Part shown: positions 1,170 through 30,141 of the stretch, piece after piece | Layout of the letters: each line of letters opens with the position of its first letter | How positions within the stretch are numbered: the stretch's first letter is position 1 | Assembly (NCBI GenBank): GCA_944383405.1 | Contig: CALWPL010000004.1 | Span: forward strand, 1 to 64,000 | Origin: an uncultured Clostridia bacterium | GTDB lineage: Bacteria; Bacillota; Clostridia; Christensenellales; UBA1242 | Reading direction: 5' to 3' | DNA length: 64,000 nt | The notes under the pieces: model-generated | Told to the model about the DNA's origin: nothing | What the model saw: only the letters and a program-made list of their open reading frames with translations | The model's database searches: none | Program-made: the position numbers and the translations under genes

Positions 1170-2285
1170 ATGTACAAAATATATGAAAAAACATTAAAAG
1201 ATGAAAATAATGTTTATGGCTTAAAAGTACTAGATGAAGATAAAAACCCATTTTTAGAAGGACCATCAGTTCTTACAATTTTAGCACTAACGCTTAATGA
1301 AAAAAATATCAATGGGAGTATGCGTCAAGTGATGGAAGCACTAAGACTAAAAACTTCGAGTAATGAAAACTCTGGCTTGACAATAGATAAAACACCATTT
1401 AAAGTGCTTGGCTTGGCTTATTCAAATAGCAAAGAAAATGGGGCATTTTATAAAGTAAGTGAAAACTCAGACGAAACAGCAAAATTTGTTGAAAAGTACT
1501 TTTATCCACTAGTAAGTGATAGCAAAAACAAAAGGCTATCTCTTGAAGAAGCACAAAGAAATTTAAGAAATGTCAATATTGTTAGTTTTTGTAAAGGAAC
1601 TGAAACTGTAAAGCACATAGAACAGAATTTGGAATCTAAAATGAAAGAACTTAACTATTCACAAGAAGAAATAGACAATATACTATCCCAAATCTGTTCA
1701 TTTCCAGTTGCAGAAGGAGTAATTGACGGAAAGGAAAAAGTTACTTGTATTTCATTTAAAGATTATCAAGACGATGATTGTCATTTTAAATGGGAAGAAG
1801 TTGATAAGGCAGCATTATTAAAAGTATCTGATAATGAGAAAATATTCTTGATAAAGGGAGATGAAAATTATAATAATTCTGATTTTTATCACAGTTTTAA
1901 AAGATATACGCAAAATAATAAATCACTAAGCGTTGCCCTATCAAGTGCTTTAACTCGGGCTGTTGATAATTCAATAAAAAATTATAATAATAAAGAAGAA
2001 TTTTCTCCAATATCTTGCAATGAAGTCGTACAAGACCTACCAAAAATAATTAAATGTATTGAAAAAGATGCCTCTAAAACTGAAATGCTTAAAATTGTAG
2101 ACGAAAATGCAAGTTATATCAGTGATTTTCACAAAATGGATAATAATTCAACAAAAAATAGTTTTCTAAACTATTTAAAAAATAATAAACTGGATAATAA
2201 TAAAAATGAAATTAAATTAAATGAAGATGATGCTAAATTAAAAACAAATAAAATAAAAAATATAGATAATGAACTTGAAAGATAA
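1170..2285 (+). CDS. Uncharacterised hydrolase-like protein, paralogue of the gene at 28660
   Basis: 371 residues with no signal peptide or membrane segment. No named family is recognised. It aligns by eye along most of its length with the protein at 28660-29667: a beta strand (GPSVLTILAL), then KVLGLAYS, an EKYFYPL helix, the turn NIVSFCKGTE near residues 136-145, and a C-terminal helix ending in IKNY. The turn has the position and shape of an alpha/beta-hydrolase nucleophile elbow, with Cys141 where the paralogue has Ser147. The last ~80 residues are charged and Asn/Lys-rich. The SD is AAGGAG. The gene sits between the metal sensor and the metal ATPase, with a strong terminator after it, so it need not belong to that module. 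Confidence 0.7.
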   Translation: MYKIYEKTLKDENNVYGLKVLDEDKNPFLEGPSVLTILALTLNEKNINGSMRQVMEALRLKTSSNENSGLTIDKTPFKVLGLAYSNSKENGAFYKVSENSDETAKFVEKYFYPLVSDSKNKRLSLEEAQRNLRNVNIVSFCKGTETVKHIEQNLESKMKELNYSQEEIDNILSQICSFPVAEGVIDGKEKVTCISFKDYQDDDCHFKWEEVDKAALLKVSDNEKIFLIKGDENYNNSDFYHSFKRYTQNNKSLSVALSSALTRAVDNSIKNYNNKEEFSPISCNEVVQDLPKIIKCIEKDASKTEMLKIVDENASYISDFHKMDNNSTKNSFLNYLKNNKLDNNKNEIKLNEDDAKLKTNKIKNIDNELER

Positions 2286-27982: not shown

Positions 27983-28060
<78 letters not shown>

Positions 28061-28071
28061 ATATAAAAAAA

Positions 28072-28148
28072 TGGTGTTCCAGGAGGGATTCGAACCCCCG
28101 ACACCCGCCTTAGAAGGGCGGTGCTCTATCCAGCTGAGCTACTGAAAC
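28072..28148 (-). tRNA. tRNA-Arg (TCT)
   Basis: The acceptor GTTTCAG pairs with CTGGAAC. The anticodon loop is CTTCTAA, giving TCT. The T loop is GGTTCGAATC, and CCA is encoded. Confidence 0.95.
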
Positions 28149-28158
28149 AAAAAAAATA

Positions 28159-28232
28159 TGGAGCGGGTGAAGGGAATCGGACCCTCGCAGCCAGCTTGGA
28201 AGGCTGGAACTCTACCACTGAGCTACACCCGC
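28159..28232 (-). tRNA. tRNA-Gly (TCC)
   Basis: The acceptor GCGGGTG pairs with CACCCGC. The anticodon loop CTTCCAA gives TCC. The T loop reads GGTCCGATTC, and CCA is encoded. It is first in the operon Gly-Arg-His. Confidence 0.95.
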
Positions 28233-28250
28233 ATGATTAAATACTGAAAT

Positions 28251-28279
28251 AATCTATCACATCTATAAAATATTGTCAA
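28251..28279 (-). promoter_or_regulatory. Promoter of the tRNA Gly-Arg-His operon
   Basis: On the minus strand TTGACA (28274-28279), 17-nt spacer, TAGATT (28251-28256), about 20 bp before tRNA-Gly. The rest of the 28233-28520 gap is AT-rich and holds no gene. Confidence 0.75.
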
Positions 28280-28520
28280 CTCATTTACAAAAAATTTTTT
28301 TTATTACTTCCATACTTTCTTATTATAAATTTAAGAATAATATAATTAACAACTCTTTAAAACTTTAATATTCAAATATATATAAAATGTTATTATATTT
28401 ATCTTAAATAAATTTATAATCTATAATTAATAAAGGATTATATAAAATTCAAAAAAAGTAATTTTTTATTATTGATTTAAACTTTCTAAATAAAAAGTTT
28501 TTAAATTTGCAAAAATTCTA

Positions 28521-28549
28521 TTGATTTTTAATCTAAAATGATAGATAAT
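28521..28549 (+). promoter_or_regulatory. Promoter of tRNA-Gln (CTG)
   Basis: TTGATT, 17-nt spacer, GATAAT, 17 bp before the tRNA 5' end. Confidence 0.7.
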
Positions 28550-28566
28550 ATATAAGTATTAAGTAT

Positions 28567-28642
28567 TGGGGTGTCGCCAAGTGGTAAGGCATTGGACTCT
28601 GACTCCAACATTCCGTAGGTTCGAATCCTGCCACCCCAGCCA
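28567..28642 (+). tRNA. tRNA-Gln (CTG)
   Basis: The acceptor TGGGGTG pairs with CACCCCA. The anticodon loop CTCTGAC gives CTG. CCA is encoded. It is nearly identical outside the anticodon arm to the tRNA-Gln (TTG) at 29885. A protein gene starts only 17 bases after its 3' end. Confidence 0.95.
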
Positions 28643-28659
28643 AATATAAGGAAAAAGCA

Positions 28660-29667
28660 ATGCGTTCAGATGATGAAAAATATGTATCCGCTAAAATAGG
28701 GAAAAGAGATTTAACTTGTGTTAATCATTGGAAAACACTTGATATAGAAAACCTTAAAATAACAAAGCCAACTGTATTATGTTTTGGTGGTAATAGAAGC
28801 ATGGACGAAAGAGACGCTAATGCTTTTTGTAAATCCGCTGAAAAAATGCTCAATTTTGACAGCCTTTTTGGGTCAACAAATAGAAAAGATATAGATTTAA
28901 TTGGTATTTCTTATGGACATTATAAGGGAGATAAATATAAAAGTAAAGACGGCGTTGAAACCTCAAGCCTAACAAAAGATGAAATAAAAAAATTTGCAAT
29001 AAGTGTTTTTAGACCTCTTTACCTAAACGAAGAAGGAAACAGAATCAACAAGTATACTGCTATGAAAAACTTTAATTTAATAACAACCTTTTCACATAGT
29101 TATGGCTCAATGGCAATAAATAGTATTATAGAAGAAGTTTATCAAGATATGATAAGAGCAGGATATACATATTTAGACACTTGTGATATATTTTCTCAAA
29201 TAATAAGCGTGTCTTATGCACCAAGAGGCGTTATTTCAGGCGTATCAAATATCCAAATTATTTCTGGTTGTGATGGGTATGATGTGCCACTGAACTGTAA
29301 CAAAAAAACAAAAAATATATATTACAATCATTTTTACAATGTAGGCGAAAATGGCAAAAAGGGAAACGGAGCAGTTATTACAGACGATAATACAATAAGC
29401 GTGTTTACAACCAATATGACAAATAATCCTAAAATTGATGACCATGCATTGAAAGTTCTAGTTAATGCAGGACAAAATCTTTCAAATGAACAAAGTAAAT
29501 TTTCGGGAAGCATTTTTTCAGTAGCACAAGATTCGTTAATTTTATCAGTAAAAAATAGTCTGCATAACTATTTATCAAATGATTTTATTCCAAAACCAAG
29601 TTTAAATGAATTGCTATCAAATACAAAACAAATATTAGGTAAAGAGCAATTTAACCTTGAAATGTGA
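28660..29667 (+). CDS. Uncharacterised alpha/beta-hydrolase-like protein, paralogue of the gene at 1170
   Basis: 335 residues. An early strand runs into a loop (VLCFGGNRSMDE, 39-50), followed by a second strand (IDLIGISYGHYKG). FSHSYGSMAI (144-153) looks like a nucleophile elbow with Ser147. A possible catalytic His is in KIDDHALKVL. No signal peptide or membrane helix is present. The same order of blocks occurs in the protein at 1170-2285, where Cys141 replaces Ser147. No promoter or terminator separates it from the tRNA-Gln gene 17 bases upstream, so it is probably transcribed with it. The SD is AAGGAA. The substrate and role are unknown. Confidence 0.72.
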   Translation: MRSDDEKYVSAKIGKRDLTCVNHWKTLDIENLKITKPTVLCFGGNRSMDERDANAFCKSAEKMLNFDSLFGSTNRKDIDLIGISYGHYKGDKYKSKDGVETSSLTKDEIKKFAISVFRPLYLNEEGNRINKYTAMKNFNLITTFSHSYGSMAINSIIEEVYQDMIRAGYTYLDTCDIFSQIISVSYAPRGVISGVSNIQIISGCDGYDVPLNCNKKTKNIYYNHFYNVGENGKKGNGAVITDDNTISVFTTNMTNNPKIDDHALKVLVNAGQNLSNEQSKFSGSIFSVAQDSLILSVKNSLHNYLSNDFIPKPSLNELLSNTKQILGKEQFNLEM

Positions 29668-29838
29668 TATTCTTATTGCACCCTAAAATTATGCTTTGAT
29701 AATGTTAAAATTTTTATTTTATTTTAAATAATATATCAATTTAACACTTAAATACAAATTATAAAAATTAAAATTTTATATTAATTTAATAATTTAAAAA
29801 TTTTTTAATTTAAAATGCTAAAAAATTTAAAAAAGTAC

Positions 29839-29867
29839 TTGATTATTTTCATTAATACTATTATAAT
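29839..29867 (+). promoter_or_regulatory. Promoter of the tRNA Gln-Lys-Leu operon
   Basis: TTGATT (29839-29844), 17-nt spacer, TATAAT (29862-29867), 17 bp before tRNA-Gln. Confidence 0.8.
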
Positions 29868-29884
29868 ACATAAGTACTAGGTTT

Positions 29885-29960
29885 TGGGGTGTAGCCAAGT
29901 GGTAAGGCACAAGACTTTGACTCTTGCATTGCGTAGGTTCAAATCCTGCCACCCCAGCCA
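29885..29960 (+). tRNA. tRNA-Gln (TTG)
   Basis: The acceptor TGGGGTG pairs with CACCCCA. The anticodon loop CTTTGAC gives TTG. CCA is encoded. Confidence 0.95.
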
Positions 29961-29967
29961 TTATCGT

Positions 29968-30043
29968 GATTCACTAGCTCAGTCGGTAGAGCACTTGACT
30001 TTTAATCAAGGGGTCCCGAGTTCGAACCTCGGGTGGATCACCA
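29968..30043 (+). tRNA. tRNA-Lys (TTT)
   Basis: The acceptor GATTCAC pairs with GTGGATC (one G-T pair). The anticodon loop CTTTTAA gives TTT. CCA is encoded. Confidence 0.95.
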
Positions 30044-30058
30044 TTTATAATCTTTCAG

Positions 30059-30141
30059 GCGGATGTGGCGGAATTGGTAGACGCGTTAGACTTAGGATCT
30101 AATGGGAGACCGTGGGGGTTCGAGCCCTCTCATCCGCACCA
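30059..30141 (+). tRNA. tRNA-Leu (TAG)
   Basis: The acceptor GCGGATG pairs with CATCCGC. The anticodon loop CTTAGGA gives TAG. A long variable arm, as expected for Leu, is present. CCA is encoded. Confidence 0.95.

Follow-up and report, generated by a model that had tools for sequence, protein, structure and literature searches.

The window, the whole 64,000-nucleotide stretch of DNA analysed here, encodes two alpha/beta-hydrolase-like proteins, p1 and p2, each with a Shine-Dalgarno-like AAGGA(G) upstream of its start codon. An earlier, sequence-only reading had placed both frames correctly, and had numbered the presumed nucleophiles, Cys141 of p1 and Ser147 of p2, correctly as well. The two genes and the tRNA genes on either side of p2 are as follows:

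1170..2285, + strand: p1, a 371-aa alpha/beta-hydrolase-like protein with a presumed Cys nucleophile (ORF with ATG, homology, AlphaFold2, Foldseek)
28567..28642, + strand: tRNA-Gln(ctg), ending 18 bp upstream of the p2 ATG (ARAGORN)
28660..29667, + strand: p2, a 335-aa alpha/beta-hydrolase-like protein with a presumed Ser nucleophile (ORF with ATG, AlphaFold2, Foldseek)
29885..29960, + strand: tRNA-Gln(ttg), the next tRNA gene after p2 (ARAGORN)

The p1 gene has the gene of an ArsR-type regulator on one side and that of a P-type ATPase on the other, with ctsR and clpC coming next; the p1 orthologue keeps the ATPase side of this arrangement. The p2 gene is set inside a tRNA cluster at positions 27983-30141 of the window (His, Arg, Gly, Gln, Gln, Lys and Leu). 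At the start of the contig there is a low-complexity ORF (positions 18-305) with repeated SQTKSNQ/AQTESSQ-type units, possibly the end of a longer protein.

Judged by their sequences, p1 and p2 are real, distant homologues. Pairwise BLASTP aligned them with 40.4 bits (E 3e-8; 27% identity across 131 positions including the nucleophile elbow), a score that was reached against p1 by none of 2000 shuffles of p2 (best shuffle 25.4 bits). A profile-profile comparison of the orthologue sets only, the p1 pair versus the p2 trio, gave E 1.7e-10 over 255 columns, and one family profile retrieves both proteins. The sequence-only reading had related the two through quoted sequence blocks, which do align, and through a common order of secondary-structure elements, on which the two AlphaFold2 models agree. 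Overall identity is only ~21%, but given these scores and the many intermediates that join p1 and p2 in one connected family, it is barely conceivable that their likeness reflects chance or a convergent fold similarity. In the trees each protein sits in its own old clade, for which reason a local duplication was rejected; on this phylogeny p1 and p2 are old paralogues, not a local expansion.

Structural models were predicted with AlphaFold2 from shallow alignments (12 and 10 rows) of the window sequences and loci from the searches. The p2 model had a pLDDT of 79.9 and a pTM of 0.86; the p1 model had a pLDDT of 72.8 and a pTM of 0.74, with a K/N-rich, low-confidence tail beyond about residue 320. 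An alpha/beta-hydrolase fold is recognised by a mostly parallel central sheet, flanking helices and a strand-elbow-helix arrangement at the nucleophile, and both models agree with it in the elements around the elbow and in their top Foldseek matches. Ser147 of p2 follows strand E141-146 and precedes the long helix H149-166; Cys141 of p1 is likewise placed between strand E135-140 and helix H143-160. The two elbows are equivalent, as had been proposed, and a common alpha/beta-hydrolase-type fold is supported.

When the models were compared with the PDB using Foldseek, the best solved match of both was Obc1 (5iky for p2, E 2.8e-8; 5ikz for p1, E 3.1e-5), followed in the case of p2 by the pancreatic lipases 1gpl and 1hpl (E 3.7e-4 and 1.6e-3). 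In Pfam, the Obc1_C model (PF21498) matched the elbow region of p2 below the cut-off (E 0.0032, 16.8 bits). Sub-threshold Obc1_C matches were also present in the elbow region of two clostridial relatives and two 'uncultured proteobacterium' members (E 4.2e-5 and 1.4e-4), and 12 of a set of 30 proteobacterial members had one too; the best score among the relatives was 23.0 bits (E 4.2e-5), and all of these matches stayed under the gathering cut-off of 27 bits. Sequence profiles of the family searched against the PDB returned no Obc1 chain up to E 10, and the link to Obc1 therefore rests on the fold comparison together with the sub-threshold Pfam matches. In a weak match (E 0.097), the HChGa motif of one family profile, A7, fell opposite GHSvGA, the elbow of a serine hydrolase of known structure. 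Since the fold match and the sub-threshold Pfam match are independent kinds of evidence and agree on a remote Obc1_C relationship, we regard the p1/p2 family as a remote relative of Obc1's C-terminal hydrolase domain that, by the cut-off rule, falls outside Obc1_C. Obc1_C itself was absent from 249 genomes of the phylum, but it was absent from 14 controls too, so that its absence carries no weight.

The sequence-only reading had recognised no evident known family, and our searches agree: for p1, p2 and their relatives, nothing exceeded a curated cut-off in Pfam, NCBIfam, PHROGs or PADLOC. The PADLOC defence models gave no match to eight members at E 1, and dienelactone hydrolase and PHA synthase profiles gave none in Pfam or NCBIfam. 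Neither the protein lengths nor the Pfam results for p1, p2 and further members point to a second domain, including an ObcA-like N-terminal one. The p1/p2 family is undescribed, and is a variant of a known fold and mechanism. Weak matches such as NAPRTase_N, HopA1 and Csm6 were rejected as identities, each being single and not common to the relatives. The family proteins are about 316-653 aa long. Three of 546-653 aa (L090:5066-7024, L084:4788-6476 and L065:5935-7878) carry a C-terminal extension of ~200-300 aa that corresponds to no Pfam family. In L092:4388-5509 and L094:3420-4514 the hydrolase frame stays open upstream across a tRNA-Ser gene, which places the real start codon downstream of the mechanical one.

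The active site was analysed in a set of 94 relatives. These come from the clostridial family of the window and from 'uncultured proteobacterium' MAGs (taxon name as in the record title), two lineages whose genomes measure about 0.7-1.4 Mb. In p2 numbering, the most conserved columns are Asp205 (98%), Gly149 (98%) and His262 (97%), and then Gly44 (95%). An acid and a His are therefore conserved after the nucleophile, the His of p1 being uncertain. The corresponding positions in the two proteins of the window are:

1278..1292, + strand: p1 loop ILALT, at the place of an oxyanion-type GGN (alignment; the p1 clade lacks GG)
1590..1592, + strand: p1 Cys141, codon TGT, presumed nucleophile (alignment; kept in the orthologue L080)
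1770..1772, + strand: p1 Asp201, presumed catalytic acid (aligns with p2 Asp205; kept in L080)
1890..1892, + strand: p1 His241, uncertain candidate for the catalytic base (aligned with His262 in one alignment; kept in L080)
28786..28794, + strand: p2 Gly43-Gly44-Asn45, presumed oxyanion loop (G44 in 95% of 94 members)
29098..29100, + strand: p2 Ser147, codon AGT, presumed nucleophile, in SHSYG (alignment)
29272..29274, + strand: p2 Asp205, presumed catalytic acid (Asp in 98% of 94 members)
29443..29445, + strand: p2 His262, presumed catalytic base (His in 97% of 94 members)

The nucleophile column contains Cys in 77 members, Ser in 16 and Asn in one. Gly occupies the second position after the nucleophile in 98% of members; the second position before it is Gly only in a GHSAG clade and in scattered members and is otherwise S/T/A or another residue, giving elbow forms such as SHCYG and FCKG that depart from the usual G-x-Nuc-x-G. 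By this count the Cys copy of the window, p1, is the family norm and the Ser copy, p2, the exception. The sequence-only reading had considered that a Cys might signal a dead paralogue. With 77 of 94 relatives using Cys as the nucleophile, and Ser a nested minority, a Cys does not identify a copy as dead; nor did we find evidence for the other suggestion, a split into Ser esterases and Cys proteases. The Asn belongs to L066:4281-5990 (+ strand), which also lacks the His, carries a C-terminal extension, is still an open frame and lies directly upstream of an intact Cys copy in tandem; from its sequence this is clearly a dead duplicate.

A tree of the 94 members, built by a quick method with the nucleophile column left out and with no outgroup root, requires at least six changes between Cys and Ser, four of which are forced by well-supported branches. 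A bootstrapped tree of a 59-member, clostridial-centred set requires four such changes, three of them forced for the Ser group. At this position Cys is encoded by TGT/TGC, while Ser is encoded by AGT/AGC in the clades of p2 and of the GHSAG members and by TCN in L115 and the proteobacterial Ser clades. AGT, AGC, TCT and TCC are each one step from TGY, the AGT codon of p2 Ser147 being one base change from TGT, whereas passing from AGY to TCN takes two steps, which makes separate exchanges the simplest explanation. The Cys majority in both lineages and the nested position of Ser argue that, by parsimony without an outgroup, Cys is probably ancestral and Ser was probably derived several times, once in the p2 clade. 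Obc1 itself is described as a serine hydrolase, and this would allow Ser at a deeper root.

Taken together, these results make it likely that a single undescribed family of cytoplasmic enzymes, with an alpha/beta-hydrolase fold and a remote kinship to the Obc1 C-terminal domain, includes both p1 and p2, and that an ancestral Cys has repeatedly been replaced by Ser within it. The analysis establishes the homology, the fold prediction, the conservation of three catalytic columns and the repeated Cys/Ser exchange; that the enzymes are active, the direction of the exchange and the chemistry are what we infer. In the mechanism we propose, the elbow Cys (Ser in p2) would attack the carbonyl of an ester, thioester or amide, with the conserved His and Asp assisting the nucleophile and relaying a proton. 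Backbone amides of the GGN loop, together with those just past the nucleophile, would form an oxyanion pocket that stabilises the intermediate, and the acyl-enzyme would then be resolved by water or another acceptor. We see even chances for the broader proposition that this is a hydrolase family, shared by two unrelated reduced-genome gut lineages, that stayed active through at least four to six exchanges of its nucleophile between Cys and Ser, this genome holding both types.

The residues of p1 fit this scheme less closely than those of p2. The oxyanion-loop GG is absent from p1, from L080 and from the sister clade L081/L082, and ~30-40 residues before the His region are missing. The position of the His differs between alignments: the first put DNE of p1 in the DEH columns, and H241 is aligned with His262 in one alignment and not in the larger 94-member one; the model around H241 has a pLDDT below 50. 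Lacking the GG loop and with an uncertain His, p1 may be altered or weakened. These features would also fit a reading in which p2 works as a serine hydrolase but p1, descended from active Cys members, has become a pseudoenzyme retained for some other function. We consider this a serious contender but not the favoured reading: p1 and L080 are 61-65% identical and Cys141, Asp201 and H241 are kept in both orthologues, and the surroundings of H241 (HSFKRYT in p1) match H-x-[FY]-x-x-[FY], the pattern seen in the sister clade (HDFAMFF in L081, HTYKEYF in L082), so that the apparent loss of the catalytic His may be an alignment effect. Furthermore, dN/dS between p1 and its orthologue is near 0.19 (dS 1.55). 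Among the orthologues of p1 and of p2 it is 0.12-0.19, which indicates functional constraint on both proteins, though dS is high (1.6-2.1).

The interchange of Cys and Ser, the lack of the GG loop and perhaps of the His in p1, and the existence of dead copies, as exemplified by the Asn-bearing duplicate, could alternatively be explained if the whole family were a non-enzymatic scaffold, that is, a binding or regulatory alpha/beta-hydrolase core in which Cys and Ser drift without a need for catalysis. This is improbable. One would not expect a mere binding scaffold to preserve just the catalytic columns, yet the Asp, the His, the elbow Gly and the oxyanion Gly are the most conserved of the 94-member set, and, with the one Asn exception, the nucleophile column holds only Cys or Ser, both of which are able to do the job.

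In the window's genome (1.33 Mb, 98% complete) no copy besides p1 and p2 was found; the two copies in 64 kb, which had been read as an expansion, are the genome's total. In the bacterial family of the window, p1 matches 32 of 147 genomes and p2 matches 39 of 147, with usually 1-4 copies per carrying genome. Among congeneric genomes, G113 has an orthologue of p1 alone, G017 and G075 have one of p2 alone, and G053 and G137 have no member at all. The rest of the order yielded one weak match, 299 genomes across the phylum yielded none besides the window's own, and searches of plasmids, phages and viral contigs gave no relatives. Members recur in the bacterial family of RUG585, an 'uncultured proteobacterium' of 0.9 Mb, where 44 of 113 genomes have them; given its presence in this second, distant group, the family is not confined to one lineage, contrary to what had been supposed. 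It is patchy in both lineages and is present in 20-40% of the sampled genomes.

The p2 slot between the tRNA-Gln genes is also kept in two congeneric genomes (L112 and L113). A tRNA gene lies within 500 bp of 11 of 58 members versus 20 of 366 control ORFs, a figure inflated by orthologues, and this proximity looks like an insertion hotspot. Relatives are found in other slots of the same tRNA cluster or by tRNA-Leu(tag), even in proteobacterial MAGs. The neighbours of the clostridial members are assorted housekeeping genes (recF/gyrB, DegV, NUDIX, CysRS and CtsR/ClpC), and assigning a function from these unrelated neighbours failed. In the proteobacterial lineage the gene is regularly located downstream of lon-like, tsaB-like and rimI-like genes, with its start codon overlapping the rimI stop. 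The Lon-like protein encoded upstream of the tsaB-rimI-hydrolase genes in L143:4644-6395 (- strand) has 584 aa, with substrate-binding, AAA and lid domains and no match to a proteolytic domain; similar lengths occur in several related genomes.

The patchy restriction to two reduced-genome gut/rumen lineages, the fast divergence and the variable C-terminal extensions might suggest effectors delivered to a eukaryotic host, for example a protist. The best viral fold match of the p2 model (BFVD search) points the same way, being a 661-aa ORFan of Tupanvirus deep ocean, an amoeba virus, with an E of 1.7e-11 that is stronger than the match to Obc1. We regard delivery to a host as unlikely: no signal peptide is apparent in the sequence, no secretion genes were seen among the adjoining genes, and the housekeeping operon of the proteobacterial copies, with tsaB and rimI, favours a cytoplasmic role in ordinary physiology over that of an exported effector.

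Collectively, our results provide a fold assignment for unannotated genes in small-genome gut bacteria and place the p1/p2 family closest to the C-terminal domain of Obc1, a Burkholderia alpha/beta hydrolase that produces oxalate from the C6-CoA adduct. This domain resembles p1 and p2 in fold as the top solved match for both, and its profile recurrently matches, below threshold, over the family's nucleophile elbow. Unlike Obc1, the family has no ObcA-like N-terminal domain, uses mostly Cys and scores below the Pfam cut-off. Pancreatic lipases and related serine hydrolases (1gpl, 1hpl) are the next fold matches of p2, but with TM-scores of ~0.3 and no sequence similarity detected. Dienelactone hydrolase is a Cys-His-Asp alpha/beta hydrolase and shares with the family a natural Cys nucleophile in this fold; however, there is no match to its profile, and the p1/p2 family alternates between Cys and Ser among relatives. 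The PHA synthase PhaC has a Cys291-His477-Asp447 triad and a GxCxG elbow (PMC5509742). It is similar to the family in its alpha/beta-hydrolase fold, its elbow Cys and the order of Asp and then His along the chain (PMC5509742), but differs in that there is no sequence match, that the family elbow is usually [ST]HCxG and not GxCxG, that no CAP domain is seen in the family and that no PHA genes were noted adjoining its genes. Cys-His-Asp alpha/beta hydrolases are also treated in PMC9853848 and PMC9825947. With PhaC and dienelactone hydrolase as natural examples, the fold was already known to occur with a Cys nucleophile. The unusual point is the repeated Cys/Ser exchange inside one family, as opposed to laboratory Ser-for-Cys exchanges in hydrolase triads, which, according to PMC6642262, usually destroy activity. 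Near neighbours fall on both sides of the exchange, with Ser in p2, L112 and L113 and Cys in L083 and others of the same genus, and such pairs are ready-made material for learning what else must change.
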